From a virus, in IMG/VR virus record IMGVR_UViG_3300020171_000069, positions 1-41,177 of that record: 41,177 bases of DNA; one strand, given 5' to 3'. Made by a program: the position numbers and the translations under genes. Positions 11,936 to 41,177 of the stretch are shown here, piece after piece (within the stretch, counting starts at the first letter, position 1; every line of letters starts with the position of its first letter). Below the pieces are notes generated by a model, which saw only the letters and a program-made list of their open reading frames with translations, searched no databases and was not told the origin of the DNA.

Positions 11936-12646
11936 TTAATTTTGTCCATATTCGTAGTCTGTATCGTTAGTTACTATTTCGTAAACTCGGTCTTGGTTTC
12001 TTCTTCGGTAAAATCCTTTCATCCTTTCGAGATACCCAAGCATATTGTTTTCAGCCTGGGTCAGTTTGTTGGCGTTGCCTTCTTTTTCAAGATATTTCTC
12101 AAAAAAATCTTTAGCAGCTCCATAAGAAAGTCCCTTATGAAAAGGTCTCGCAAATCCAGGTTCGTCGGTGACATTGCTCAATTGAGTGGGGAGTTTTTCG
12201 TAATAAACCTTCAGACCCGAAGTAACGGCGATAGTCGGGATAGGATAGAGGAATAGGGAATTGTCCATCAGGTCAAAGAAGGGGTCTCCTTCATCAAATT
12301 CTTCTCCGATAGTAGTGGTGTCGTTAGTTCCGGTGCGTTCATTGATATCTTTAGGATTAACAGTGTACCAGGTCGTTCCGTCGTAAGTTATCTCTACCTT
12401 TTTTATCTTTAAAATATCCGTCGGTAAGATGTATTCTTGTTGGCTGGCGACAAGATTGGTGGTGGCGTAATCAGCCTGAAAATCCCACTCATCCATTGAA
12501 TTTATGATCTCAGTAACAAATAGGTCGTAATAGGTATTTAAAGAAGCGTCCAGATCGGCACTGGAATAGGTCGTCGTATTGGTATTGGTCAGCATTCGGG
12601 TGAAGTTTCTCAAACCGTCCGAAATTGAGGCATTGGATAAAATCAT
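11936..12646 (-). CDS. Head-tail adaptor / neck protein
   Basis: A protein of 236 residues with the pattern of podovirus and SU10-type adaptors (T7 gp11-like): an N-terminal helical part (LDASLNTYYDLFVTEIINSM), YILPTDILKIKKVEITYDG in the middle, a short beta part (LFLYPIPTIAVTSGLKVYYE) and C-terminal helices (LTQAENNMLGYLERMKGF). It forms the ring below the portal. In this phage it is separated from the capsid genes by the glycan island. Confidence 0.65.
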   Translation of the reverse strand: MILSNASISDGLRNFTRMLTNTNTTTYSSADLDASLNTYYDLFVTEIINSMDEWDFQADYATTNLVASQQEYILPTDILKIKKVEITYDGTTWYTVNPKDINERTGTNDTTTIGEEFDEGDPFFDLMDNSLFLYPIPTIAVTSGLKVYYEKLPTQLSNVTDEPGFARPFHKGLSYGAAKDFFEKYLEKEGNANKLTQAENNMLGYLERMKGFYRRRNQDRVYEIVTNDTDYEYGQN

Positions 12647-13350
12647 AATATTTCTTTTGGAGCAGGGCTATATTTAGCCACTGACTTATCCCCATAAGGT
12701 CTAATGTTTAAATTTGAATCGGGTGTCCATTTTTTCCACACTTCTTCAAACCAATCTATAGGTATGTCATAAGCGTGGGAATAGCTCTGTATCTTTTCTT
12801 TTACCTTTTCGTCTGAGTGAACCCAACTAAAATGATGGCAGGTAACCGGAATCAGGGGGGCTTGTTCTGTAAATGGGTAAGATTTGTCGAAAGGTTGGGT
12901 CTGGCGATGTTCGCAAAATCTAACTTTTCTGGGATTGACCGCGATTATCGGTTTATGCCTGTCAATCGGGTCGAATATGTAATCTCTAGTCTTCCAATAG
13001 GTCAGCATCTTTTCTGCTCGATAGGCATCGTCTCCTTTTAGTGATGAGATTATCTTTTGTCTGTCTTCTAGCGTGTAAAACTCATCAGGGTCTATGATTA
13101 AAACATAATCGTAATCTCTTAAAATCCCCAGTCCCCAATCCCTTTGTTGAGCTTCAGTATCCCAGAATCTTTCTATCACTTCGGCATCCCCTGTATTTTC
13201 TTTTGTTCCTTCGTCCCCGACATTTACTCCGTTCCAGGGTTGAGACGAGATAAGGACTAAATGCTTATCTACCAATCCTTTCCACTGTTCGATACACTTT
13301 CCTATTTCTGGTTCATTGTAGGCTATTGTTAGAACAGCGATTTTTGACAT
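12643..13350 (-). CDS. GT-A fold glycosyltransferase
   Basis: A protein of 235 residues. It opens MSKIAVLTIAYNEPEIGKCI, the nucleotide-binding start of GT2-like enzymes, and carries the metal-binding acidic motif DYVLIIDPDEF near residue 90. A His-rich segment (VTCHHFSWVHSDEKV) follows. It is the last gene of the glycan island and overlaps the neck adaptor by 4 bp, so the island is fully embedded in the late operon. Donor and acceptor cannot be read from sequence. Confidence 0.75.
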   Translation of the reverse strand: MSKIAVLTIAYNEPEIGKCIEQWKGLVDKHLVLISSQPWNGVNVGDEGTKENTGDAEVIERFWDTEAQQRDWGLGILRDYDYVLIIDPDEFYTLEDRQKIISSLKGDDAYRAEKMLTYWKTRDYIFDPIDRHKPIIAVNPRKVRFCEHRQTQPFDKSYPFTEQAPLIPVTCHHFSWVHSDEKVKEKIQSYSHAYDIPIDWFEEVWKKWTPDSNLNIRPYGDKSVAKYSPAPKEIL

Positions 13351-13361
13351 ATTCTAGGGCG

Positions 13362-14705
13362 TTAATAGTTCTTAATGTGTTCTATGACTAAATTAGCGTT
13401 ATATTCCCTATTTTTTCCCAGTCTGTCGCACATCCCTCCGGTGGTTCCTCCATATTTATAAATATCCATATCTATATACTTAAACTTCGCGCCTGTTTTT
13501 GCTACTCGGCCCCAGAAATCCCAATCTTCGTAGAGTTCCTTATGTTCTTCCCAGTAACCACCCACTTGTTTCCACAAGTCTCGCCTATATAACGATGTTC
13601 CGAACAACTGATTATTGACTAAAAACTTTTCATAAGTTATCTCTGTAGTCGGTTTCAGTTGGGTCTCGTTATCTCTCCACACCAGATTCCCGTAAACCAC
13701 ATCTCCAGCTTGTTCCAGCATCTTATCAATCACATTCGGATATAACTCATCATCAGCATCTAGGGGTAAGATGTATCTAGCTTTTGAATTACAGATTGCA
13801 GTGTTTCTTGATTGGGCTAATCCTCTGTTTCTGTCGTGTCTCAAATATCTTATCGGCAAGTCTTTTATATCTTCATACGGGTCTTTATCCGAATGATCAT
13901 CAACTACGACTATGTCGCACTTAGTCTTATTGTTTAAAACACTTTCTATCGCCCGTTTTAACAAGTCATTGTGATTATAATTGGGTATGACCACGCATAC
14001 TTTTCTTGATGTTTGCTCGAGATAATCATTATATAGCTTTCTCAAATGAGGGAATCTGTCTAACCAGATTGCCATTTTTCCTGAACTTTCTTTTAAATAA
14101 CTTTCAAATATGCCTATTTTCTTTCTTGCTCCTCCGAGTTCGTGTCCTATCTCTAAATCATCTATTACATATAACTTATATCCCGCCTCTGAGGCTAACT
14201 GGGATGTCTGAATATCAGTAATTCCGAACCACTGAAAGGGAATAAACTCTGCAAATCTATCGAATAACTTAGTGTTAAAATAACAGGCGATATCTTCAAT
14301 ATGGAAAACTTGTCTTTTGCCGTCTTTATGAATTCTCCACATCTGCTCCCATCCACTCCCGTCTTTTTGAATTGCCGAACTCACTATGCCCTCACCTCCT
14401 TTTATATTTCTCTCTATTATCTCAAAATAGTCTTCTGGTATGTCGTAAATATCATTATTGAAAATTCCTACGAAATCATACTTTCTGAATAGTGGTTCGG
14501 TAAATATGTAATCGTGCATCCCTCCGAAGCCTACGTTCTCCCTGCCTAAGTCTATAACCTCAATGTCTTTATTTTTATAAACCTGTTCTTCTGTGCTTGA
14601 GTTATCTAAAACATAAATATCGTGTTTTTTACCCATTAAAAGAGCTTTTACTACGCTATCTGTCATTTCCGAGGTATTGTATGAGCAAATTATTGTGCAG
14701 AGCAT
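13362..14705 (-). CDS. Two-domain GT2 glycosyltransferase
   Basis: A protein of 447 residues with two GT2 units. The first opens MLCTIICSYNTSEMTDSVVK with a degenerate acidic motif (GIFNNDIYDIPEDYF), as in rhamnosyltransferase-like WbbL families. The second starts near residue 236 (VCVVIPNYNHNDLLKRAIES) and has VVVDDHSD, NRGLAQSRNTAI and the DADDE motif near residue 320, with a late EDWDFW segment typical of GT2 catalytic regions. It could add two sugars in succession. Its start overlaps the GT32-like gene by 16 bp. Confidence 0.85.
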   Translation of the reverse strand: MLCTIICSYNTSEMTDSVVKALLMGKKHDIYVLDNSSTEEQVYKNKDIEVIDLGRENVGFGGMHDYIFTEPLFRKYDFVGIFNNDIYDIPEDYFEIIERNIKGGEGIVSSAIQKDGSGWEQMWRIHKDGKRQVFHIEDIACYFNTKLFDRFAEFIPFQWFGITDIQTSQLASEAGYKLYVIDDLEIGHELGGARKKIGIFESYLKESSGKMAIWLDRFPHLRKLYNDYLEQTSRKVCVVIPNYNHNDLLKRAIESVLNNKTKCDIVVVDDHSDKDPYEDIKDLPIRYLRHDRNRGLAQSRNTAICNSKARYILPLDADDELYPNVIDKMLEQAGDVVYGNLVWRDNETQLKPTTEITYEKFLVNNQLFGTSLYRRDLWKQVGGYWEEHKELYEDWDFWGRVAKTGAKFKYIDMDIYKYGGTTGGMCDRLGKNREYNANLVIEHIKNY

Positions 14706-15322
14706 AGTGCCTTTTTAAATACTTTAGATATTAGCCAGGGCTGTGCCAAAATGTCTCCACTGCTCATCTTCTTAAATTCGTCTGAAAAACTTGAATTATA
14801 CAGCGTAAAAACATAATTGTTTTCGGTAGAGTATTTTTTTATATCTTCATCTTCAAACAGTTTCCAGAACTCATCTCCTGTGTGATAAATGGGACATATC
14901 ATCTCTCTGGTAAAAACTCCGAACTCTTTAAACTCTTTGTCCTTCAATAATGGTTGGATTAAATCGCTGAACGTCGGATCTTTGACTTTCTTCATCGCCT
15001 CGAACCATCTCTCCACCAGCTTGTTTCCCCTTGTGGCCCCAAAGAATCCAGGTATCCCTGCGAATCCGTGTTTTTCAACTAATTTTATAAGGGGCTTCAA
15101 ATCTTTCATCACTATCATGTCAGCATCTATCCAAAATCCTCCATTCTCTAAGATTAACCAGGCTTTTAAATAATCCGTCTTGTGGTTTATTTTCATTCCA
15201 TTCAATTCCGGGTAATCATCGTGTCCTAAAATAACAACATCCATTCCGCTATTCTTGAGGCTCTTTTGGCAAAGGTCTATATACCCGTGCTTTTTACCTT
15301 CCCAATATGTGTATAAATTCAT
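14690..15322 (-). CDS. GT32-like (DXD sugar-binding) glycosyltransferase
   Basis: A protein of 210 residues. The segment TDYLKAWLILENGGFWIDAD carries the GT32/Gly_transf_sug signature: a helix, the Gly-Gly-x-W motif and the Asp-x-Asp metal site near residue 70. The rest is alpha/beta with no signal peptide. It overlaps both neighbours (29 bp with the GT upstream, 16 bp with the two-domain GT2 downstream), so the island is translated as a tightly coupled unit. Confidence 0.8.
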   Translation of the reverse strand: MNLYTYWEGKKHGYIDLCQKSLKNSGMDVVILGHDDYPELNGMKINHKTDYLKAWLILENGGFWIDADMIVMKDLKPLIKLVEKHGFAGIPGFFGATRGNKLVERWFEAMKKVKDPTFSDLIQPLLKDKEFKEFGVFTREMICPIYHTGDEFWKLFEDEDIKKYSTENNYVFTLYNSSFSDEFKKMSSGDILAQPWLISKVFKKALCSAQ

Positions 15323-16085
15323 ATTCTATTTCCTGCTGGGCGGAGTTTATATTAAATTCCTTATCTATATTTATCGTCTTTCCTTCCAGGTACATCTTTT
15401 CTAGTTCTTCTGGAGAATGGGCGTACTTTAATCCGTTCCGATTGGCGTTGGTATCATTGACCCGGTTAGCCGGAACTCCGAAGACTCTGCTCTGTTTATA
15501 GGCTACCATATTGCTCTGTAAGCCCTCTAAATGCCTCTGTAACACACCTTCGTATATATTTGGGTTGTTATATGCCTCTAGCTCGGAAATCTCCTTTATT
15601 TGCGTTGTTTTGAATATGTGGGAGATTACTGACAACGGATATCCAAAATCTAATTCTTCCTTCCGCCAATCCCACTTGATAAACTCCCCTCTATCTTCGC
15701 AATTCTTGATCTTGTTAGGCTTATCATTCGAGTAGCAATAGTCTATATTTAGTCCTAATCTTAGGCTGAAACACACCACATCGTCAGTTATTTCTTTCAA
15801 AATAGCCTTATTAAAATCTCGATAGAAGATATCATCATCAGCCGCGAAACAGGTATAATCGTATTTCATCAATCCTAGTAAATCTTTCTTGAAATCAGTT
15901 TGTTCTATAAAATTGACATAAGGCTTCCGCTTCTTCAGTATCTCGTACCCCCCCCTAAACTCCTCGTCTGATTTGTAAAGAACATCTATATTATTGAAAA
16001 ATCCCTTGGTATGCAGTTCTATGCTATCGATTGTCGCCTGCAATTGCATCGGTCTATTTTTTGAAAATATGATGAGATTTAACAT
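15294..16085 (-). CDS. GT-A fold glycosyltransferase
   Basis: A protein of 263 residues opening MLNLIIFSKNRPMQLQATID, the start used by a family of GT-A transferases in capsule clusters. The acidic motif FAADDDIFYR near residue 85 supplies the DXD site. C-terminal half with conserved-looking GVPANRVNDTNANRNG. Overlaps the nucleotidyltransferase-like gene by 32 bp and the GT32 gene by 29 bp. Substrate unknown. Confidence 0.75.
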   Translation of the reverse strand: MLNLIIFSKNRPMQLQATIDSIELHTKGFFNNIDVLYKSDEEFRGGYEILKKRKPYVNFIEQTDFKKDLLGLMKYDYTCFAADDDIFYRDFNKAILKEITDDVVCFSLRLGLNIDYCYSNDKPNKIKNCEDRGEFIKWDWRKEELDFGYPLSVISHIFKTTQIKEISELEAYNNPNIYEGVLQRHLEGLQSNMVAYKQSRVFGVPANRVNDTNANRNGLKYAHSPEELEKMYLEGKTINIDKEFNINSAQQEIEYEFIHILGR

Positions 16086-16473
16086 AATCTAGGTGTTTTG
16101 TTTTATTTGGGTATTTTCCGTATTCCAGCAGTCTGATGGCAAGGTCTGCATATTCTGAACCGCTTAGTATCAGTTCCCTATAGACATCAAGCGAATCAAT
16201 CAGGTCTATCCTTAAGATCAACTCTACTTTGATAAAATCTATATGTATGTGTCCGTCTATGCTTTCTACCGCAATCTTATATCCTCTATCTAACAATCCG
16301 AATGATAGGTGTTGTATCTGACGGGCCATCTCATTCTTATCTTGGCAATAAACATCTATGTCGTTTCCTATCTCGTAATCTGGATAGATGGGAGACTTTT
16401 TAATGACTATATAACCAACACTTGTTTTTGAAAGAACCGTCTGTATGTCTATTTTATCTTGATTATCATCCAT
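16054..16473 (-). CDS. Nucleotidyltransferase-fold protein of polysaccharide cluster
   Basis: A protein of 139 residues. The segment YEIGNDIDVYCQD carries a G-N-D-x-D pattern like the catalytic loop of the minimal nucleotidyltransferase/polymerase-beta fold, and HIHIDFIKVELILRIDLID may give the third acidic residue. Such small proteins occur beside capsule genes, but their substrate is usually unknown. It overlaps the ParB-like gene upstream by 25 bp and the GT downstream by 32 bp. Function is tentative. Confidence 0.55.
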   Translation of the reverse strand: MDDNQDKIDIQTVLSKTSVGYIVIKKSPIYPDYEIGNDIDVYCQDKNEMARQIQHLSFGLLDRGYKIAVESIDGHIHIDFIKVELILRIDLIDSLDVYRELILSGSEYADLAIRLLEYGKYPNKTKHLDYVKSHHIFKK

Positions 16474-17291
16474 TTTTTTATTCCCTTATTCAACATAATT
16501 GCCAATCTGTGGTTTCCGTCTTGCACTATCCCACCTTTCACGAATATATTTCCTATTTTTTTCTTATCAAATCTGTCAATCAATTTATCAAACATTACCG
16601 GAGAACCATTTAACACTAGATTAACTCCCTTGTGCTTGTCCCAATAATCTATATAGGGCTTCTTATCCCCCATGACATACTTGTAATAAATGCTTTCTTT
16701 GATAGGAACTTGTCTTAATTCGTCATCTGATATTTCAGAGACCAACAAATCTTCTATACTCGTCCTTTCTATCGTGTAATCAACAAATCTTTCTAAATAA
16801 AATGGGGCTTCTATGGTTGGGCAGGAACTTCCGATTATCGAGTCTATACTTTGGAACGGTAATGTATTCCAAAATTCATAAGTCTGGGATTCGAAATCTG
16901 AGGTGTGTATGACGTGGTGCTCACTCCGTTCTCCATCTATTATCGGGTTATACTTTTCCCTGACCTCCCACTTGAACCTATTTATCAACATACATTGGAT
17001 ATGTCGGTATTCTCCTTCTCCGACGATCTTTTCTTCGGGTCTATTATTTTTTAAAAGTCCGATGTATGTATCTGCAAATCCTATCCTGTGCAAGTAGTCT
17101 GTTTTGGCCTTGATGTGTTGCCAGGGGACTGCATCGGTACTGTATAGCTCTCTTATAAAATCTATATTGTCCTTCGGGGTGTATCTCTTAAAATAAATAA
17201 GTTCCAGGTCTTCATACTTGCTTAGAATTTCTAGTATCCCATCGATTTTATCCACTCCGTGGGCAAATACAACAAAGAAGTCTAGCCTCAT
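16449..17291 (-). CDS. Capsule-cluster protein with C-terminal ParB-like motif
   Basis: A protein of 280 residues. The N-terminal 130 residues (HGVDKIDGILEILSKYEDLE, STDAVPWQHIKAKTDYL, EGEYRHIQCMLINRFKWEV, HHVIHTSDFESQTYEFW) resemble a family of unknown function seen in capsular polysaccharide clusters. The last ~30 residues (FVKGGIVQDGNHRLAIMLNK) show the ParB/sulfiredoxin-like D-G-x-H-R motif, used in some relatives for nucleotide or phosphate transfer. It sits between the dehydratase and the nucleotidyltransferase-like gene. It may modify or transfer a phosphorylated glycan. Confidence 0.5.
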   Translation of the reverse strand: MRLDFFVVFAHGVDKIDGILEILSKYEDLELIYFKRYTPKDNIDFIRELYSTDAVPWQHIKAKTDYLHRIGFADTYIGLLKNNRPEEKIVGEGEYRHIQCMLINRFKWEVREKYNPIIDGERSEHHVIHTSDFESQTYEFWNTLPFQSIDSIIGSSCPTIEAPFYLERFVDYTIERTSIEDLLVSEISDDELRQVPIKESIYYKYVMGDKKPYIDYWDKHKGVNLVLNGSPVMFDKLIDRFDKKKIGNIFVKGGIVQDGNHRLAIMLNKGIKKWMIIKIK

Positions 17292-18295
17292 AATATTTTA
17301 CATATTGTTTCTATATCCTTGTCAGTTAAATCCTGATGGACCGGAACAAATAGTCCAGTCCTTCCTATCTTTTCTGCCACTGGGTATTCTCCTTCTAATC
17401 CGTACTCTACTGTTGGTAAACAACTAAATAGCTTTCTTGCCTCGATTCCGTTCTTCTCTAGTTCTTTCAACTTGTTATCCCTTTCTTCTGAATCTTTATA
17501 AAAAACAGGGTAACAATGAGGCGTATAAGCATACCAATCTTTTTTTAGCAGTTTATTGAAAGTCTCCACGTTCTCTCTGCGTTTCTTTATCACATCACCC
17601 CCAGAGGGAGCGATAGCACACCCGATCGCCGCTAGGACATTACTCATCTTCCCGTTTAGTCCAAACACCGGAAAATGGAACATATCTAATATTTCAGTGC
17701 TTAATCTTCCGTGGTTCCGACAAGCTCTCGCAAACTTAGCCAGAGTCTCGTCATTAGTCAGAATCATCCCTCCTTCTCCGGTAGTTATGGTATGAGAAGG
17801 AAAGAAAGAATAAGTTGAAAATTCTACATCGTTTCTGATTCCATAGGCCTCACAGTTATCTTCTACAACAGGAACACCTAGTTTTCTTATCTCGCTGATT
17901 CTGGCGCTCTTACCCAAAAGGTTAGCTGGCATTATACAGAGAGTCTTATCAGTGACTTGAATCAAGTCGGGATTCATCTGGCAGTCGTCATCTATATCAA
18001 CAAAAACTGGTTTCAATCCGTTGGCTATAACAGCATTAGTATGAGCTATAAAAGTAAGCGCTGGCACTATGACCTCATTCTTATCTGGATAAAGAGCTTT
18101 TAGCGCCGCTAAGGAAACAATATCAGCCATTGTTCCATTACAGACCGCTATCCCGTATTTAGCCCCGTGATAATTGGCGACAGCCTCCTCAAATTCCGGT
18201 ATGAAACTTCCACTAGCAATCCTATTGTCATCCAGAGCTTTGTTTATGTTGTCTCTGACTTCCTTTGTAATTTTTGATGTAGCTAGTGATATCAT
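17288..18295 (-). CDS. ColD-like nucleotide-sugar 3-dehydratase (DegT family, His in place of Lys)
   Basis: A protein of 335 residues of the DegT/DnrJ/EryC1/StrS fold. PLP-site residues are visible: NGTMAD (residues ~53-58), the Asp in VVEDNCEAYG (residue ~146), and SFFPSHTITTGEGGMI. In aminotransferases the residue before T-I-T/T-T-G-E-G-G is the Schiff-base Lys; here it is His168. This swap is known from GDP-4-keto-6-deoxymannose 3-dehydratase (ColD) and the E1 3-dehydrase. The expected product is a 3,6-dideoxy-4-keto sugar nucleotide. The adjacent GMD-like gene could supply GDP-4-keto-6-deoxymannose. No ColC-like partner is seen. Confidence 0.8.
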   Translation of the reverse strand: MISLATSKITKEVRDNINKALDDNRIASGSFIPEFEEAVANYHGAKYGIAVCNGTMADIVSLAALKALYPDKNEVIVPALTFIAHTNAVIANGLKPVFVDIDDDCQMNPDLIQVTDKTLCIMPANLLGKSARISEIRKLGVPVVEDNCEAYGIRNDVEFSTYSFFPSHTITTGEGGMILTNDETLAKFARACRNHGRLSTEILDMFHFPVFGLNGKMSNVLAAIGCAIAPSGGDVIKKRRENVETFNKLLKKDWYAYTPHCYPVFYKDSEERDNKLKELEKNGIEARKLFSCLPTVEYGLEGEYPVAEKIGRTGLFVPVHQDLTDKDIETICKIL

Positions 18296-19230
18296 AATCT
18301 TTCTCTCCAGTAAAAAAGTAAATTATCCAAACTCTTCTCAAGAGGGATTGTCTTCTCCCATCCTAGCTGTTCTTTGGCCTTAGTTGCGTCTCCTTTCATT
18401 GTAGGGGTATCGACAGGTCTCATCCTTTCTGGATCTATTTCGGTTTTTACCTTGACCTTAGCTAGCTTTAAAAGCGTATCTAAAACCTCTTGTATCTTAG
18501 TCGGTTTTTCAGAAGCTAAACAAAAAACTTCTCCCCATCTTTTACTCCTCATAATCTTCACATAACCCCTAACGACATCTTCTATGTCGGTAAAGTCCCT
18601 GGAACTTTCTAGGTTTCCGTGCCTGATAACATCTCTTAATCCTTTCTCAACTTCGACTACCTGTTTAGCAAAATTAGAATCCACAAATACTTCCGCCCTT
18701 CCATACCCAGTAACATTGAATGATCGAGAAACTACAACCTTCATCCCATAAGCCCGATGGTAGAGCCTGGCAATCATATCTTGGGCGTACTTTGATATCC
18801 CATAATGAGTATTGGGGTCAGCTACTGTTTCCTCGTTTATCTTCCCCTCTTGTGTTCCGTAGATTTCAGATGTTGAAGTCACCAGTATCGAAGGAGAGAA
18901 GTCTAACTTTCTTACACATTCTAAGATATTGACTGTTCCTATAACATTGGTAATGTACGTTTCTATCGGGCTATCCCAGGATGATTTGACATAACTCTGG
19001 GCCGCTAGATGATAAATCTCTTCCGGCTTTACTATATTTAAAACATTTCCTACTGAAAATGAATCTGACAGTTCTACAAGATGGATAGTAACCCTATCTA
19101 GAATATCTTTAATCTTGTGCAGGTCGCTTCTTACCCTTACTGTTCCGTGGACTTCGTGTCCTTCTTTGACTAGATAATGCGCTAAGTGGGAAGCGGCGAA
19201 TCCGTTTATTCCGCTAATTAAAATCTTCAT
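18292..19230 (-). CDS. GDP-mannose 4,6-dehydratase-like SDR enzyme
   Basis: A protein of 312 residues. It shows the extended SDR features: the Rossmann motif GINGFAASHL (residues 7-16), HLAAQSYV (74-81), the catalytic TSE (120-122) and YGISK (Y143, K147), and SRSFNVTGYG. This is the pattern of GDP-mannose 4,6-dehydratase, which makes GDP-4-keto-6-deoxy-D-mannose; related reductases or epimerases are possible. I chose ATG at 19230, which overlaps the upstream TGA (ATGA) and has GGAAGG before it. Overlaps the ColD-like gene by 4 bp, consistent with sequential steps. Confidence 0.8.
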   Translation of the reverse strand: MKILISGINGFAASHLAHYLVKEGHEVHGTVRVRSDLHKIKDILDRVTIHLVELSDSFSVGNVLNIVKPEEIYHLAAQSYVKSSWDSPIETYITNVIGTVNILECVRKLDFSPSILVTSTSEIYGTQEGKINEETVADPNTHYGISKYAQDMIARLYHRAYGMKVVVSRSFNVTGYGRAEVFVDSNFAKQVVEVEKGLRDVIRHGNLESSRDFTDIEDVVRGYVKIMRSKRWGEVFCLASEKPTKIQEVLDTLLKLAKVKVKTEIDPERMRPVDTPTMKGDATKAKEQLGWEKTIPLEKSLDNLLFYWRERL

Positions 19231-21506
19231 AGGTTTTCCTTCCATAAATTGCTTATTCTATCCCAGTTATAAGTTTCTTTAGCCCAGTTGATCTCTTCAG
19301 TATTGACCTTATATTCCATTCTCTTGATATATTCTTCATTGTTATTATCTCCAAAGGTGTTTTCTTTTTCCCATTTTTCTCCCTCGGTATGTATTTTCCA
19401 TCCGTATTTGACAGTCTCATCAAGAGCAGCAAAATCTGAGGTTATCATCAGGCATCCCGCTAATTGAGCCTTGACCGCACTGATGCAGTGAATCTCATAA
19501 AATTGGGTAGGGTACAGAAACACACCAGCTTCTAGGTACTTTTTAGCGATATCCTTATGGTTTATCATCATCCCCCCCTCGGCCCGTCCTTCGGTTACCA
19601 GTTTATTAAATCTCTCCATCTGTTTAGCCTTCCAGTCCATCATTTCCTTATTCTCGGCGTGGACTTGGTCATACACTCCCCAGCCGTAATACCAGGCTAA
19701 CTTCCAGGGCTTATCGGGTTGTCGTTTAATCAGTTCTTCAAAGATATCCAGGGTAGCGTCTAGGTGTCTATCAGGGCTTGAGGTATTTAAAATAAGGTAC
19801 GGATTCTTTTCGACTTTTTCCTTGAATAACTCAGGGTCTATTCCGTTAGGTATCACAGCTATCTTTTCGTCTGGAATACTCGGGAATAGAATCCGGTGAG
19901 CGTTAGTTTTGACGAAAACCTTATCTATTTTCGACAATCTTTTGGGTGTAAACTCCTTATCAGAAACAACATCGTGCATATCTATAAAAATCTTATCAGA
20001 GTTAAGTTCTTCGTAATCACAGGGTTTGGGGTGTCTCCAGATTATCGTCACATCCTGCTTGTCTCGGACATTATATTTCCAATAATGACGATATTTCACT
20101 CCGTCCCATTCTCCTTCTTTTCCGCAGTTGCAGTAAACGGTGATATTCCAATCCTTAGCTAATTTTTTAGTTAAATTTATGACCGCCTCTTCCGATCCCC
20201 CGCATCCATCAGTCATCGCAATATCAGGGTTCCAGTATTTAGAGGTATAACCGCAATAATATACTAAATCTTTTCCAGAAGACTCTTTTTTCCAGAATAA
20301 TGAGTTCTTGAAATAGCAAATCTTCGGATGGGATTGGATTTTTTCTGGTAAATTATCAAGGTACTTCCTTAGTTCTTCTCTATCAGTTATTTTTTCCGAT
20401 TCTTCCAGGTATTTATCTATATTTATAGCCTCTCCCATCTCTCCTCGGATGATTTTATCCAGTTCTGATATCATTTTCTCTTTAGGGAACATCTTGGAGA
20501 GCTTTTCGACTGTTAAAACTGCTTTTTCAAACTTTCCGGTCTCGAAATATATCTTAGCCATCGTCATCATCGGGTATAAATCATATTCACGGGGATTGTA
20601 GGCGATGATTTCTTTATCGGGGATAGGCATTTGTAGTCCTAATTCTATGAAATTAAGAGCCTTATCGTATTTTTTATCGTTATATAACTGTTCTCCTAGT
20701 TTTAGGTAAGCATCGGGATAGGTCGGTCTTAAATAAAACGCTTCAAAAGCATATCGTTGGTCTTTTAAAATATGAAACAGCAGCATATTAGCCAGGTACT
20801 TCTCTTCTTCGCTATCAGATAACTCGATGTATTTTTTAAATATTTCAGCGGCCTTTTCGTGTTCCTTTTTCATTACGAGGGCATTTCCCATCAACCAGTA
20901 GCTTCGGGGGTCTTGTGGGTCATTTTTGAGCGCCTGAGAGGATATCTCGTAGTTCCTGTCTATGCTCTGATCTACCCGTTTGTCGCTAGTAAGGTGTAAC
21001 ACTTCTATATTTTCTATAAAACAGGTGTCTAAACTCCGGTTCTCCTTAAAATCTTCGTGGACTATTCCTACCCACTCGACACAGCCATCATTTTTGATAA
21101 TCCGGCTTTTCAGATGTTTGGTGTCACAGGTTTTGTTCTCATTGAAGTGATAGAGGTAATTCATCACGCCGATATCAATAGCCTTTTCACTCATCGTATC
21201 AACTGCGCTTCTGAGGTTCTGGACTCCTTTTAAGACATCATCAGAATCCAACCACAGGATATAATCACCCGTAGCTTGAGAGAAGTTATAATTTCTAGCA
21301 GATGCGAAATCATTAGTCCACCTAAAGAAAGATTCTTTTCCTCCATAGCCCTTAATAACTTCCGAAACTTTCTTATTGGGCTTGTCCCCCGCTTGGGTTA
21401 TACAGATTTCATCTACTCCTGATGAGACATACCTGAGGCATCTATCGAGAAGTTTCGCCTCTTCTTTGTCAGGTTTTACGATTAAACAAAGTGATAGTTT
21501 TACCAT
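19227..21506 (-). CDS. Bifunctional GT2-TPR-GT4 glycosyltransferase
   Basis: A protein of 759 residues. Residues 1-110 form a GT2 domain (KLSLCLIVKPDKEEAKLLDR, NYNFSQATGDYILWLDSDDV with the DSDD metal motif). Residues ~200-370 are helical TPR-like repeats (YWLMGNALVMKKEHEKAAEI). From ~410 a GT4 domain follows (MTDGCGGSEEAVINLTKKL, KTNAHRILFPSIPDEKIAVI, then PNGIDPELF and the LYPTQFYEIHCISAVKAQLA E-x7-E-like region). It is the first gene of the glycan island. GT2-TPR proteins often glycosylate proteins, which fits virion decoration. Confidence 0.85.
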   Translation of the reverse strand: MVKLSLCLIVKPDKEEAKLLDRCLRYVSSGVDEICITQAGDKPNKKVSEVIKGYGGKESFFRWTNDFASARNYNFSQATGDYILWLDSDDVLKGVQNLRSAVDTMSEKAIDIGVMNYLYHFNENKTCDTKHLKSRIIKNDGCVEWVGIVHEDFKENRSLDTCFIENIEVLHLTSDKRVDQSIDRNYEISSQALKNDPQDPRSYWLMGNALVMKKEHEKAAEIFKKYIELSDSEEEKYLANMLLFHILKDQRYAFEAFYLRPTYPDAYLKLGEQLYNDKKYDKALNFIELGLQMPIPDKEIIAYNPREYDLYPMMTMAKIYFETGKFEKAVLTVEKLSKMFPKEKMISELDKIIRGEMGEAINIDKYLEESEKITDREELRKYLDNLPEKIQSHPKICYFKNSLFWKKESSGKDLVYYCGYTSKYWNPDIAMTDGCGGSEEAVINLTKKLAKDWNITVYCNCGKEGEWDGVKYRHYWKYNVRDKQDVTIIWRHPKPCDYEELNSDKIFIDMHDVVSDKEFTPKRLSKIDKVFVKTNAHRILFPSIPDEKIAVIPNGIDPELFKEKVEKNPYLILNTSSPDRHLDATLDIFEELIKRQPDKPWKLAWYYGWGVYDQVHAENKEMMDWKAKQMERFNKLVTEGRAEGGMMINHKDIAKKYLEAGVFLYPTQFYEIHCISAVKAQLAGCLMITSDFAALDETVKYGWKIHTEGEKWEKENTFGDNNNEEYIKRMEYKVNTEEINWAKETYNWDRISNLWKENL

Positions 21507-21919: not shown

Positions 21920-22843
21920 TTAATCGATATCGAACCCGTCGGCATAGAAGTTTGAATCTTGATTTCGCACTTCGAGAGTCATAGCGCCATACACAGCTTC
22001 AGCATCGTATGCTCCAGAGGCGGGCATATCGATAATCTGAGGTCTGATTAAGTAGGCGACTTTGAGCTTCTCTGGTTTGATACCAAGAACTCTTCCAGTC
22101 GTATCTGTTCCTGAAACCTGGATATATCTGTGGGCGTGGACGACCACTCTTCCGAATCCTGTCTCAAAGATATCTACCGCCATCACGATTCTCTTTTCTC
22201 CGACACCATCATAAGTGATGCCAGTCTTGTTCGTGAAATCATCGGTAGCATTCTTGAGGAAAGAACCCATATAGAGGTCAGTAGCCACTTCTCCGTTAGA
22301 GTTATCCCAGTTGGCCTTCATCAATCCTTTGAGGATTGAAGCGGACCAGACTGTTCCAGAATTATGAGAGGTATGATTGGTAGATTTGGAAACCGCCTGA
22401 ATTATACCTTTCATCTTCGCAGCTGTAGCGCTGGAAGCTCCAGAAACTAGGGTGCTTCTTACTAGGTCGTATTCCACTGCGTTCGCAAAATCTACCATAG
22501 CCTTGGCTCTCTGCCGTGCTAGTTCGTCTTGCGACTGGAATTTATCGACCGCTCTCTGTACTTTTGTTACGCTGTATCTCTTCGCAACTTCCTCAACAAT
22601 GTTGGTAAGCCTGGTTGGAGTTGTCAGAGCTGTATTTGAAAAATCAGCACCTTCAGCCTTAGCCAGGGTTCCAGCAGTGTCATAAGTATCGACTAGAGTT
22701 TCGTGGACAGTTCCACTGGCCGTAGTCTTACCCAGTTGGTTGTGAATGGATACTTCTTTGGCGGTGAGGATCTCAATGAGTCCCAGTACATCTTCCTTTG
22801 CGGAATAATCGCCATAAGAACGTAATATTTCATCTGTAGCCAT
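21920..22843 (-). CDS. Major capsid protein, SU10 / DUF5309-like
   Basis: A protein of 307 residues with an HK97-type outline. The N-terminal region contains IEILTAKEVSIHNQLGKTTA and ETLVDTYDTA. The central helical part has EEVAKRYSVTKVQRAVDKFQ and the long helix ELARQRAKAMVDFANAVEYD, followed by the insertion SGASSATAAKMKGIIQAVS. The end is beta-rich (RPQIIDMPASGAYDAEAVYG). These are features of the SU10 major capsid family of podoviruses. It follows the scaffold gene and is bracketed by RNA hairpins on both sides. Expected to be the most abundant late product. Confidence 0.8.
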   Translation of the reverse strand: MATDEILRSYGDYSAKEDVLGLIEILTAKEVSIHNQLGKTTASGTVHETLVDTYDTAGTLAKAEGADFSNTALTTPTRLTNIVEEVAKRYSVTKVQRAVDKFQSQDELARQRAKAMVDFANAVEYDLVRSTLVSGASSATAAKMKGIIQAVSKSTNHTSHNSGTVWSASILKGLMKANWDNSNGEVATDLYMGSFLKNATDDFTNKTGITYDGVGEKRIVMAVDIFETGFGRVVVHAHRYIQVSGTDTTGRVLGIKPEKLKVAYLIRPQIIDMPASGAYDAEAVYGAMTLEVRNQDSNFYADGFDID

Positions 22844-34102: not shown

Positions 34103-34651
34103 TTATAAATTAGCTAAATATTGTCCCGTTCTGTAACAAGTCCACCTTCCCCAACCACCTTTATCATATATTTCTTTGGCCACCTTGACATTAAATTCTG
34201 GGTCTTGAAGTTGCTCGGTAGTATAGTCGTGATAAATCTGTGAGATTTGGAACAGTCCGACTGAGGGCTTGGAAAGATGAGTATCTCCGATTCTATCAGC
34301 GATAAGAGAGCTTTCACATTTCGCAACCGCTAAGGCTGTAGGAGTATCATCTCCGAAGTAGAGAGCTACTAGATCCGTTATACCCTCCCTTGAGGATATA
34401 GTTTTTGAATCTTTCGGCAACGACCCAGTATCTTGCGATACCACTTCGCCCACTTGTGGCTCTACTTCTGCCTCGACTGTATGTATTCTTAATGTATATC
34501 TATAGCCCTCGTTAGCCCAATTGTAATAGGGGACACCGACTAGATAAAGATATGTTCCGGTTGCTCCTATCACTAGGCATACTAGGCCTAAAAAAAATCT
34601 TGATTGTTTAAATGTACTTAACTTACTGACTATCCACTTTTTGATACGCAT
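34103..34651 (-). CDS. Membrane-anchored lysozyme-like (SLT) protein
   Basis: A protein of 182 residues. One N-terminal membrane segment (FFLGLVCLVIGATGTYLYLV) after a basic start (MRIKKWIVSKLSTFKQSR). From ~90 a transglycosylase-like fold: AVAKCESSLIADRIGDTHLS with the probable catalytic Glu (CES), SVGLFQISQIYHDYT, and KGGWGRWTCYRTGQYLANL. It would act on peptidoglycan outside the membrane. Placement in the early region, not beside the M23 enzyme, is odd and may indicate a role other than final lysis. Confidence 0.75.
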   Translation of the reverse strand: MRIKKWIVSKLSTFKQSRFFLGLVCLVIGATGTYLYLVGVPYYNWANEGYRYTLRIHTVEAEVEPQVGEVVSQDTGSLPKDSKTISSREGITDLVALYFGDDTPTALAVAKCESSLIADRIGDTHLSKPSVGLFQISQIYHDYTTEQLQDPEFNVKVAKEIYDKGGWGRWTCYRTGQYLANL

Positions 34652-38043: not shown

Positions 38044-38226
38044 CTATTTGTTCAGAAACTTGGTGTACTCACTGAGTAAAAGTCCCAGCAGTACGACATA
38101 AATCGGAGATACTGTTATTGTGCCGTCTGTAAACATCGTCAGCAATCCGCTAAGAATGAAAGCTACGGCTTGTCCTCCACCTCTCCACAAAAGAGAATAA
38201 AGGCGTTTTTTTACTTGGTCGTTCAT
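38044..38226 (-). CDS. Holin-like membrane protein
   Basis: A protein of 60 residues with two hydrophobic spans (GGQAVAFILSGLLTMF and VSPIYVVLLGLLLSEYT) and a short basic start (MNDQVKKRLYSLLWR), the class II holin pattern. It directly follows the M23 peptidase, sharing a base with its stop (TAATG-type overlap), and is the last late gene before the terminator. It would release or activate the peptidase across the inner membrane. Confidence 0.65.
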   Translation of the reverse strand: MNDQVKKRLYSLLWRGGGQAVAFILSGLLTMFTDGTITVSPIYVVLLGLLLSEYTKFLNK

Positions 38227-38942
38227 TATTTAAAATTAAGTTTATTAGCTAACCAATCTATAAATCTATCCACCCACTTTTGGATAACTCCTAAATCAGG
38301 TTCAGGAGTCGTTATTTGTCCGTCTTCCTGCATTATGGGTTGGCTGTTATCTACTGGAACGCTCTGTGGGGTCGCTGGAGACACTACAATAGGCGCTGTG
38401 GGCTGTTTGGGGTCAGAAGATACATCAGGTGCCACTTCGGGTTTTGGGACGCTTACAGGCTCAATTTCGACTTCTTTTACAATCTCTTTAATTACTATTA
38501 GTTTTCCCCAGCCTCCGTTGGTTCCGGTTCCGTCATAGCAATAAACTACTTCTCCGTCGAAAGGAGAATATATAGGATCTCCGAAGTCTGAATTACCTGC
38601 TCCCTTTCCGTTCCAATCTTCGCCTGGGTGATAGCAGTACCTCGTTCCGTATTTAGCATAGTCTAAATATCCCCAGCCCATATGGTCGTATTCTGGGAAA
38701 CTTATCTTTCTAAAGGGCTTAGGGTCGGCATAGGCTTTTTTGACCATATCTCTAGTCATACTGAAAACATAGGCCGTCCATTGAGGCATTACACTCTTAG
38801 GAAAATCTACGTGCAGATGGCTAGCATTTTTATATTGCCTATTGCCGTCTCCTATCGTGCAAATCTTCTGACCCTTTTTAACAAAGTCTCCTTTCTTAAA
38901 AAAGAGTTGGTTACAATGTCCTAGTCTGCAAAAAATACTCAT
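38226..38942 (-). CDS. M23 peptidase with permuted catalytic halves (endolysin candidate)
   Basis: A protein of 238 residues. Residues 4-48 are the second half of an M23 (LytM) domain: CRLGHCNQ, FVKKGQKICTIGDGN and SHLHVDFP with H42 and H44. Residues ~100-152 are the first half: RYCYHPGEDWNGKGAG with H105 and D109, DPIYSPFDGEVVYCYDG and GGWGKLIVIKE. All four expected metal/catalytic positions are present but in reversed order. A Pro-rich linker and a Trp-rich end (QKWVDRFIDWLANKL) follow. No signal peptide. A holin-like gene follows. It may be circularly permuted or made of two half domains. Confidence 0.75.
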   Translation of the reverse strand: MSIFCRLGHCNQLFFKKGDFVKKGQKICTIGDGNRQYKNASHLHVDFPKSVMPQWTAYVFSMTRDMVKKAYADPKPFRKISFPEYDHMGWGYLDYAKYGTRYCYHPGEDWNGKGAGNSDFGDPIYSPFDGEVVYCYDGTGTNGGWGKLIVIKEIVKEVEIEPVSVPKPEVAPDVSSDPKQPTAPIVVSPATPQSVPVDNSQPIMQEDGQITTPEPDLGVIQKWVDRFIDWLANKLNFK

Positions 38943-39012
38943 AAAATTTTTCTAAATTAAATAATCCATACACGTGTAATTGCGTATATCCATTAGCGAT
39001 AACTGTTACCAT
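38911..39012 (-). CDS. Very small protein, uncertain
   Basis: A 33-codon frame from ATG at 39012 (MVTVIANGYTQLHVYGLFNL, ending LQTRTL) after a TTTAAA leader. It overlaps the M23 start by 32 bp. The longer frame with start at 39129 in the same phase is probably a shadow of the membrane frame in its first half. The residue mix looks natural, but nothing else supports it. Confidence 0.35.
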   Translation of the reverse strand: MVTVIANGYTQLHVYGLFNLEKFYEYFLQTRTL

Positions 39013-39019
39013 TTTAAAC

Positions 39020-39250
39020 TTACAGTCCTCCCCGATAGCCCGTTGGGATAGAAATGTTCTTACTAGAACCCTGGGCGTTGTACGGACGGACTTCGATATT
39101 GGCGATGGCGATTGAGATGTATCTGACACTTAAATACAGGACGATAAGCAATCCTATTAAAAATAAGATGACCTTCGTCCAAAATAATTTAGTACTGATA
39201 AGTTGTAAATAATTATTATTTCGTCTGGCCGATAATCTTCGGTTAAGAAG
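39020..39250 (-). CDS. Transmembrane protein frame lacking a canonical start
   Basis: An open frame of about 76 codons reading RRLSARRNNNYLQLISTKLF, then a membrane span (KVILFLIGLLIVLYLSVRYI) and an outer tail (NIEVRPYNAQGSSKNISIPT, GYRGGL). It looks like a real N-in/C-out anchored protein. There is no ATG, GTG or TTG before the span. The preceding gene stops as TCT-TAA-C, and a +1 shift at that stop enters this frame. Non-canonical initiation is the other option. Possibly a spanin-like or lysis protein. Confidence 0.45.
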   Translation of the reverse strand, partial: LLNRRLSARRNNNYLQLISTKLFWTKVILFLIGLLIVLYLSVRYISIAIANIEVRPYNAQGSSKNISIPTGYRGGL

Positions 39251-40906: not shown

Positions 40907-41055
40907 TTGGAAGCTCCTTTTTTAGCTTCTTTTTCACAGTGTTCCGGGGTCGCCAGTGTCCTTAATATTTCCCGTTCGTGTTCAGGAGCTTTGCTCCAGA
41001 TTTCGAGGGGAACTTGCAGGACAAGAACCAACAGCCAAAGAGCCAAATGTCTCAT
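40834..41055 (-). CDS. Small secreted or membrane-anchored protein
   Basis: A protein of 73 residues. The N-terminus (MRHLALWLLVLVLQVPLEIW) is a signal peptide or anchor, followed by a charged helical domain (HEREILRTLATPEHCEKEAK). It has a strong AGGAGG site and lies across the circular junction next to the holin-like membrane proteins. It may be a spanin or periplasmic lysis helper, but no lipobox is present. Confidence 0.65.
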   Translation of the reverse strand: MRHLALWLLVLVLQVPLEIWSKAPEHEREILRTLATPEHCEKEAKKGASKWRIYEVIKNGFWELHIEEVKTII

Positions 41056-41177
41056 ATTAACCTCCTAAAGAACTATGTATCTTTTATCAATAAATAAATG
41101 AGGGCGGTAACTACGACTGTTAAAATTACACCTGCCGCCCCGTAAACCAACTTGCGAACAGGGGAAAATACATCATA
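41051..41177. repeat. Terminal direct repeat, right copy (circular overlap)
   Basis: Exact second copy of bases 1-127. It contains the AGGAGG ribosome site and start of the secreted small protein at 41055 and, above 41073, a duplicated 3' part of the membrane protein gene annotated at 23-358. That gene is complete only at the left end. Confidence 0.95.

Follow-up and report, generated by a model that had tools for sequence, protein, structure and literature searches.

A circularly permuted M23/LytM metallopeptidase as the probable endolysin of a bacterial virus

Main finding

A minus-strand gene at 38226-38942 of a bacterial virus very probably encodes a circularly permuted M23/LytM metallopeptidase that would act as a phage endolysin. 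The stretch analysed here (the window) is the entire 41,177-base virus record. The HxH half of the domain precedes the HxxxD half within a single open frame of 238 residues, as the sequence-only reading had recognized, and the residues of the active site are all present. The same order and breakpoints recur in homologues from other viral contigs, where the frame is under purifying selection. The fold, the zinc binding, the activity, the role in lysis and the route of origin are inferred.

Reversed order of the two M23 halves

The start codon of the gene is an ATG preceded in frame by a stop four codons upstream, and the protein begins with MSIFCRLGHCNQLFFKKGDFVKKGQ. The gene, its parts and the gene that follows it are arranged as listed below, with the evidence for each.

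38226..38942 (-): permuted M23 peptidase gene, 238 aa, ATG start (open frame; stop upstream; starts of homologues coincide)
38802..38942 (-): HxH half of the M23 domain, first in the chain, residues 1-47 (PF01551 positions 48-87; blastp to canonical endolysins)
38916..38918 (-): H9, third active-site His (aligns with the His of AHL in TagE, 5j1l; invariant in the permuted family)
38811..38819 (-): HLH motif, residues 42-44 (translation; invariant in four permuted proteins)
38709..38795 (-): helical C-terminal module of the M23 subfamily, residues 50-78 (blastp to Cumys and phiLo endolysins reaches residues 74-77; helices predicted)
38631..38708 (-): fusion of the old C-terminus to the old N-terminus, residues 79-104 (alignment with the canonical relative L101, GWGYLEYTYGGVYHPGEDWNG; best rotation start 83)
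38616..38630 (-): HPGED motif, residues 105-109 (translation; DNA-pattern match ending at 38616; H and D invariant)
38484..38630 (-): HxxxD half of the M23 domain, second in the chain, residues 105-153 (identities to TSP4, L101 and the permuted homologue L092)
38295..38483 (-): Pro-rich linker, residues 154-216 (sequence; low pLDDT; missing from the permuted homologues L092 and L183)
38235..38294 (-): C-terminal amphipathic helix, residues 217-236 (helix 217-234 in a low-confidence model; hydrophobic moment)
38044..38226 (-): gene of a holin-like 60-aa membrane protein (one clear hydrophobic segment; size; position)

The HLH and HPGED motifs lie at the positions first read for them, with 60 residues between. 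By homology, H42 is the predicted catalytic residue of the first motif and H44 a putative zinc ligand, and H105 and D109 of the second motif would likewise bind zinc. The sequence-only reading held that all metal and catalytic residues are kept; its four motif residues are indeed present, but it overlooked H9, the aligned counterpart of the third active-site His (the 'YAHL' motif, YxHL) of known M23 enzymes, such as that in the AHL of TagE. Both zinc motifs, HxxxD and HxH, and the third His are found in the protein (H9, H42, H44, H105 and D109). The same reading had YADPKPF, which ends the module at residues 50-78 (YLDPxxF in relatives), joined at once to GWGYLDYAKYG, the canonical N-terminal edge within residues 79-104; 11 residues (RKISFPEYDHM) in fact lie between them. 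The old ends of the domain are thus linked by about 11 residues, and its new ends correspond to both strands of a single hairpin.

The second half (residues 105-153) shares 49% identity over 47 aa with the N-terminal half of the TSP4 endolysin, and 51-55% with L101 and L092. Its last strand, WGKLIVI, ends at residue 151 and is followed by the Pro-rich linker. The hydrophobic moment of residues 217-236 is 0.635, a value attained by 0.8% of shuffles. Linker and amphipathic helix may anchor the window protein to the membrane or the wall.

The protein scores 37.7 bits against the Pfam profile PF01551 (cut-off 28.7). The best stretch, at residues 6-47, covers profile positions 48-87 of 96, which is the HxH half; in native order the match does not extend over the whole domain, and it becomes continuous only after rotation. 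In blastp, the native protein matches canonical Thermus phage endolysins in two HSPs whose order is swapped, and such double matches are obtained with ordinary relatives in Thermus phages, Moraniibacteriota, Verrucomicrobiota and Bacteroidota. The Cumys endolysin, for example, matches the native protein by separate halves (E 2e-9 and 8e-9) and the rotated protein, in which residues 85-156 were put ahead of 1-86 in silico, in one HSP (E 8e-20). A rotation scan against eight canonical domains gave a mean alignment score of 205 for the rotated, 137 for the native and about 30 for the shuffled sequence. The maximum was found with a start at residue 83 of the window protein and at 76-87 of three permuted homologues, while the eight canonical controls peaked at rotation 1-3.

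A search of the whole window by tblastn with canonical relatives matched only the peptidase gene at E<0.1. No second M23 half was therefore found elsewhere in the genome, in line with the earlier statement that a first half is missing upstream.

Permuted homologues in other viral contigs

Homologues with the same order, a check that the sequence-only reading had proposed, were found in four more IMG/VR contigs, which hold three distinct sequences. One (L092) was retrieved with a small alignment of the HxxxD half, and three (L180, L181 and L183) with an alignment of the window protein and L092. Scans of IMG/VR with a single protein or half a protein returned no relatives; to retrieve these, small alignments were needed, made either from one half or from a pair of permuted proteins. 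A DNA pattern written for the permuted order matched the window and no other viral contig; the homologues do not retain all of its fixed K, V and GQ positions. Terminase relatives showed no PF01551 match.

Each of the four homologues has the permuted order in one frame, so that the M23 norm of HxxxD ahead of HxH is broken in L092, L180/L181 and L183 as it is in the window protein. The three distinct sequences are 39-46% identical to the latter and reproduce its positions within one residue: the first His is at 9-10, HLH at 41-42 and HxxxD at 105-106, and the last strand ends at 151-152. The position of the ATG is common to all, 8-9 residues ahead of the catalytic His. In L092 and L183 a stop follows three residues past the last strand and an in-frame stop stands three codons upstream of the ATG; each of these proteins consequently consists of the permuted domain alone. 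The five active-site residues (H9, H42, H44, H105 and D109) are invariant in the four permuted proteins. Codon comparison among L092, L180 and L183 gave dN of 0.22-0.27 with dS of about 2 or saturated, which indicates purifying selection on the permuted reading. A profile built from the four permuted proteins aligns to their contigs as a single piece (E 1e-90 to 1e-105), as opposed to two swapped pieces, with E no better than 1e-15, in each of seven canonical genomes or viruses.

The contigs themselves differ. L180 and L181, which belong to different metagenome records, share about 21 kb of identical sequence; their virus is a distant relative of the window phage, with a terminase that is 52% identical over a part and several other genes that match more weakly. 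The contigs of L092 and L183 (G+C 42% and 27%) show almost no further match to window proteins, and the permuted gene thus resides in different phage backbones. Small membrane-protein genes lie downstream of it in L180 and L092. The gene preceding the permuted peptidase in L183 (27-491 of that contig) resembles a CHAP wall hydrolase with an E value of 8e-4, under the Pfam cut-off. Weak matches of L183 to Campylobacter phages were discarded: they fall on a gene that neighbours the baseplate gene, and the stretch of it that was read contains neither HLH nor HxxxD.

The presence of the same rearranged enzyme in at least three other viral sequences shows that it is a real, conserved variant and not a sequencing mistake. 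With the order, the start and the end of the second half shared and conservation strong, these sequences bear out the original interpretation as circular permutation, as opposed to decay or misassembly.

Predicted fold

An AlphaFold model was computed from a 62-row alignment that combined the four permuted proteins with half-fragments of canonical relatives; an earlier four-row run had given a pLDDT of 46. The model has a mean pLDDT of 75 and a pTM of 0.64, with 52 residues at 90 or above and a core mostly above 85. Residues 3-13 and 147-153 are predicted as strands and are the two that would be expected to pair at the new ends, and residues 81-103 are of low confidence. Foldseek with the permuted model returned no significant match, only weak ones of lipoyl/MexA type; as the search follows chain order, it is unable to confirm a permuted match. 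Lipoyl/MexA barrel-sandwich hybrids share a fold class with the LytM core. Biotin_lipoyl is also the weak second Pfam match of the protein encoded at 38226-38942 (-).

Canonical relatives and number of origins

The order is normal in all 93 non-permuted relatives, which came from the scans that found the permuted homologues and from Thermus phage proteins. Searches of 380 genomes from the phylum of L101, and of 395 and 289 genomes from the phyla to which a Dokdonia and a Haloferula locus belong, sets that included no permuted positive control, yielded no permuted copy; the variant is thus known here only from viral contigs. A tree of 35 rows does not unite the permuted proteins in a clade and needs two changes, whereas after removal of the long-branch rows they form one clade with support of 65/91. 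The trees do not settle the choice between one and two origins. We regard it as unlikely that permutation at the central hairpin of the fold occurred repeatedly among phages, with the window protein on one side and the L092/L180/L183 group on the other. If it did, repeated permutation would mark the hairpin as a natural re-entry point of the M23 fold.

Lysis context and the rest of the genome

The holin-like gene overlaps the stop codon of the peptidase gene as TAATG. Its 60-aa product has no Pfam match and no match to a holin family; it weakly matches phrog_15071, a family with unassigned function. Judging from this arrangement and from the Pro-rich linker and amphipathic helix of the window copy, the permuted peptidase is probably a holin-dependent zinc endolysin.

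On the other side, a 34-codon reading (MVTVIANGYTQLHVYGLFNLEKFYEYFLQTRTL, 38909-39012, minus strand) lies one base out of frame, overlaps the peptidase start and resembles a beta-hairpin; slippage by +1 on a T6 run would join it to the peptidase. An open frame at 39022-39200 (-) contains a strong transmembrane segment (STKLFWTKVILFLIGLLIVLYLSVRYISIA...GYRGGL) and has no ATG, GTG or TTG near its likely beginning. It is possibly a further membrane protein of the lysis cassette with an unusual start.

A second wall hydrolase of 182 aa, encoded at 34103-34651 (-), combines a hydrophobic segment at its N-terminus with a lysozyme-like SLT_3 domain (E 8e-10). Between a capsid-like gene (21920-22843) and the tail-side genes, about ten genes at 12643-21506 (-) read as glycosyltransferases or sugar-nucleotide enzymes. 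A clear Shine-Dalgarno motif precedes few genes of the window, and the upstream regions are A-rich, which may say something on the host. A 127-nt direct repeat with identical copies at 1-127 and 41051-41177 indicates that the genome is probably complete, and circular or terminally redundant.

Alternative readings

The window is a metagenome-derived virus record, and a wrong join in its contig could in principle reverse the order of the halves. Against an assembly or sequencing artefact stand four other contigs with this order and these breakpoints, among them the two from different metagenome records that share about 21 kb of identical sequence; the divergence of the permuted proteins (30-60% in sequence) and the intact frame with its intact overlap with the next gene likewise speak against it. 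This reading is refuted in practice by the permuted homologues, and its probability is close to nil. Another reading is a truncated remnant of a tandem M23 protein, tandem duplication being the natural route to the permuted order. The back half of domain one would then be followed by the front half of domain two in a non-enzymatic protein, perhaps with wall binding only, and the fact that chain-order Foldseek gives only lipoyl/MexA-like cores would be compatible with it. Decay of this kind fits poorly, however, with five active-site residues that are invariant in four divergent proteins and with the low dN/dS. Moreover, both ends fall at the same hairpin with no core strand missing or repeated, and no tandem protein was found among the 93 relatives (0/93). 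The sequence-only reading had itself raised the truncated middle of a two-domain protein as a way to fail; L092 and L183, which consist of the permuted unit alone, are at odds with it, and we consider a remnant improbable.

Two further readings leave the permuted order in place and concern the form of the product. The single-chain model has a confident core, the join of the old ends needs no extra length compared with a normal permutation, and the data call for no dimer; activity only as a domain-swapped dimer, in which the halves pair across chains to give two sites per dimer, accordingly receives as little of our credence as the remnant, even though the halves are linked by a poorly predicted helical segment (81-103) and a two-part fold would allow swapping. 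The product might also start upstream if the ribosome shifted by +1 on the T6 run near 38936, which would add MVTVIANGYTQLHVYGLFNLEKFYEY ahead of CRLGHC. The reading frame displaced by one base stays open between 39129 and 38911 and its end is beta-hairpin-like, but the ATG stands at the same position in all permuted homologues, and in L092 and L183 in-frame stops lie three codons ahead of it, so that a shifted start is very improbable. The upstream extension supplies no HxxxD half, and the permutation stands with or without the frameshift.

Proposed mechanism, origin and meaning

In the circularly permuted enzyme, the chain would begin in the beta-hairpin that normally links the M23 halves and run through the HxH half into the C-terminal module. 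From there it would lead straight into what is normally the N-terminal segment, continue through the HxxxD half and end at the other strand of the hairpin. The two halves are expected to fold together into the usual beta-core, in which the connection alone would differ. Zinc would be held by H105, D109 and H44, with H42 and H9 as the catalytic residues that activate water. The enzyme most likely crosses the membrane via the holin-like product of the overlapping gene and, once the holin opens the membrane, would cut a peptide bond in the peptidoglycan at lysis. The simplest and most likely origin is a tandem duplication in frame, after which the outer halves were lost as the first copy gained a new start and the second a new stop; a duplicated intermediate was not found among the relatives.

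M23/LytM enzymes are a very common family and among the best-known bacterial wall peptidases. A natural, conserved permutation would imply that the M23 fold tolerates new ends in its central hairpin, and would constitute a natural experiment on the assembly of the fold and of its active groove. Profile searches in normal order see a permuted M23 enzyme as half-matches and may miss or misname it. In endolysins, the permutation also offers another place at which linkers and targeting tails can be attached.

Comparison with known systems

The M23/LytM domain is defined from HxxxD up to HxH (PMC9662197). The window protein is related by descent to M23 enzymes, departs from this motif order and probably acts much as M23 endolysins do. 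The same paper, a dedicated M23 review, makes no mention of permutation (PMC9662197). No permuted M23 enzyme was found in full-text searches of open-licence papers, nor a solved structure of one by sequence search, and such an enzyme is likely to be previously unreported.

Both halves of the window protein are homologous to the M23 endolysins of Thermus phages (Cumys XKB89998.1, phiLo, IN93 ORF8, TSP4 and P23-45; phrog_7767), with 28-49% identity. The DPxxF C-terminal module, the YLDP-like N-terminal edge and the active-site residues are shared, and the endolysin genes of P23-45 and TSP4 directly precede a holin gene, as the window gene precedes the holin-like gene. In the Thermus phage enzymes HxxxD comes before HxH, whereas the window protein is rotated by about half a domain; the Pro-rich tail with its amphipathic helix is likewise a feature of the window protein and not of these endolysins. 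The canonical proteins closest to the rotated window protein are secreted M23 proteins of Moraniibacteriota, Verrucomicrobiota and Bacteroidota (L101, L100, L133, L111 and others), which share 35-40% identity over the whole domain; these are products of cellular genes, often longer and with other domains, and have the normal order. LytM, lysostaphin, TagE (4qp5, 5j1l, 2gu1) and the lytic endopeptidase 8s3m carry the same zinc motifs and the third His and are similar half by half, but they too have the normal order, unlike the window protein. A precedent for permutation is provided by the NlpC/P60 wall-hydrolase superfamily, in whose permuted members (the LRAT and YaeF/G6R families) the catalytic residues are swapped by circular permutation (PMC6403190, PMC10318531), yet these are cysteine enzymes of unrelated fold and chemistry.
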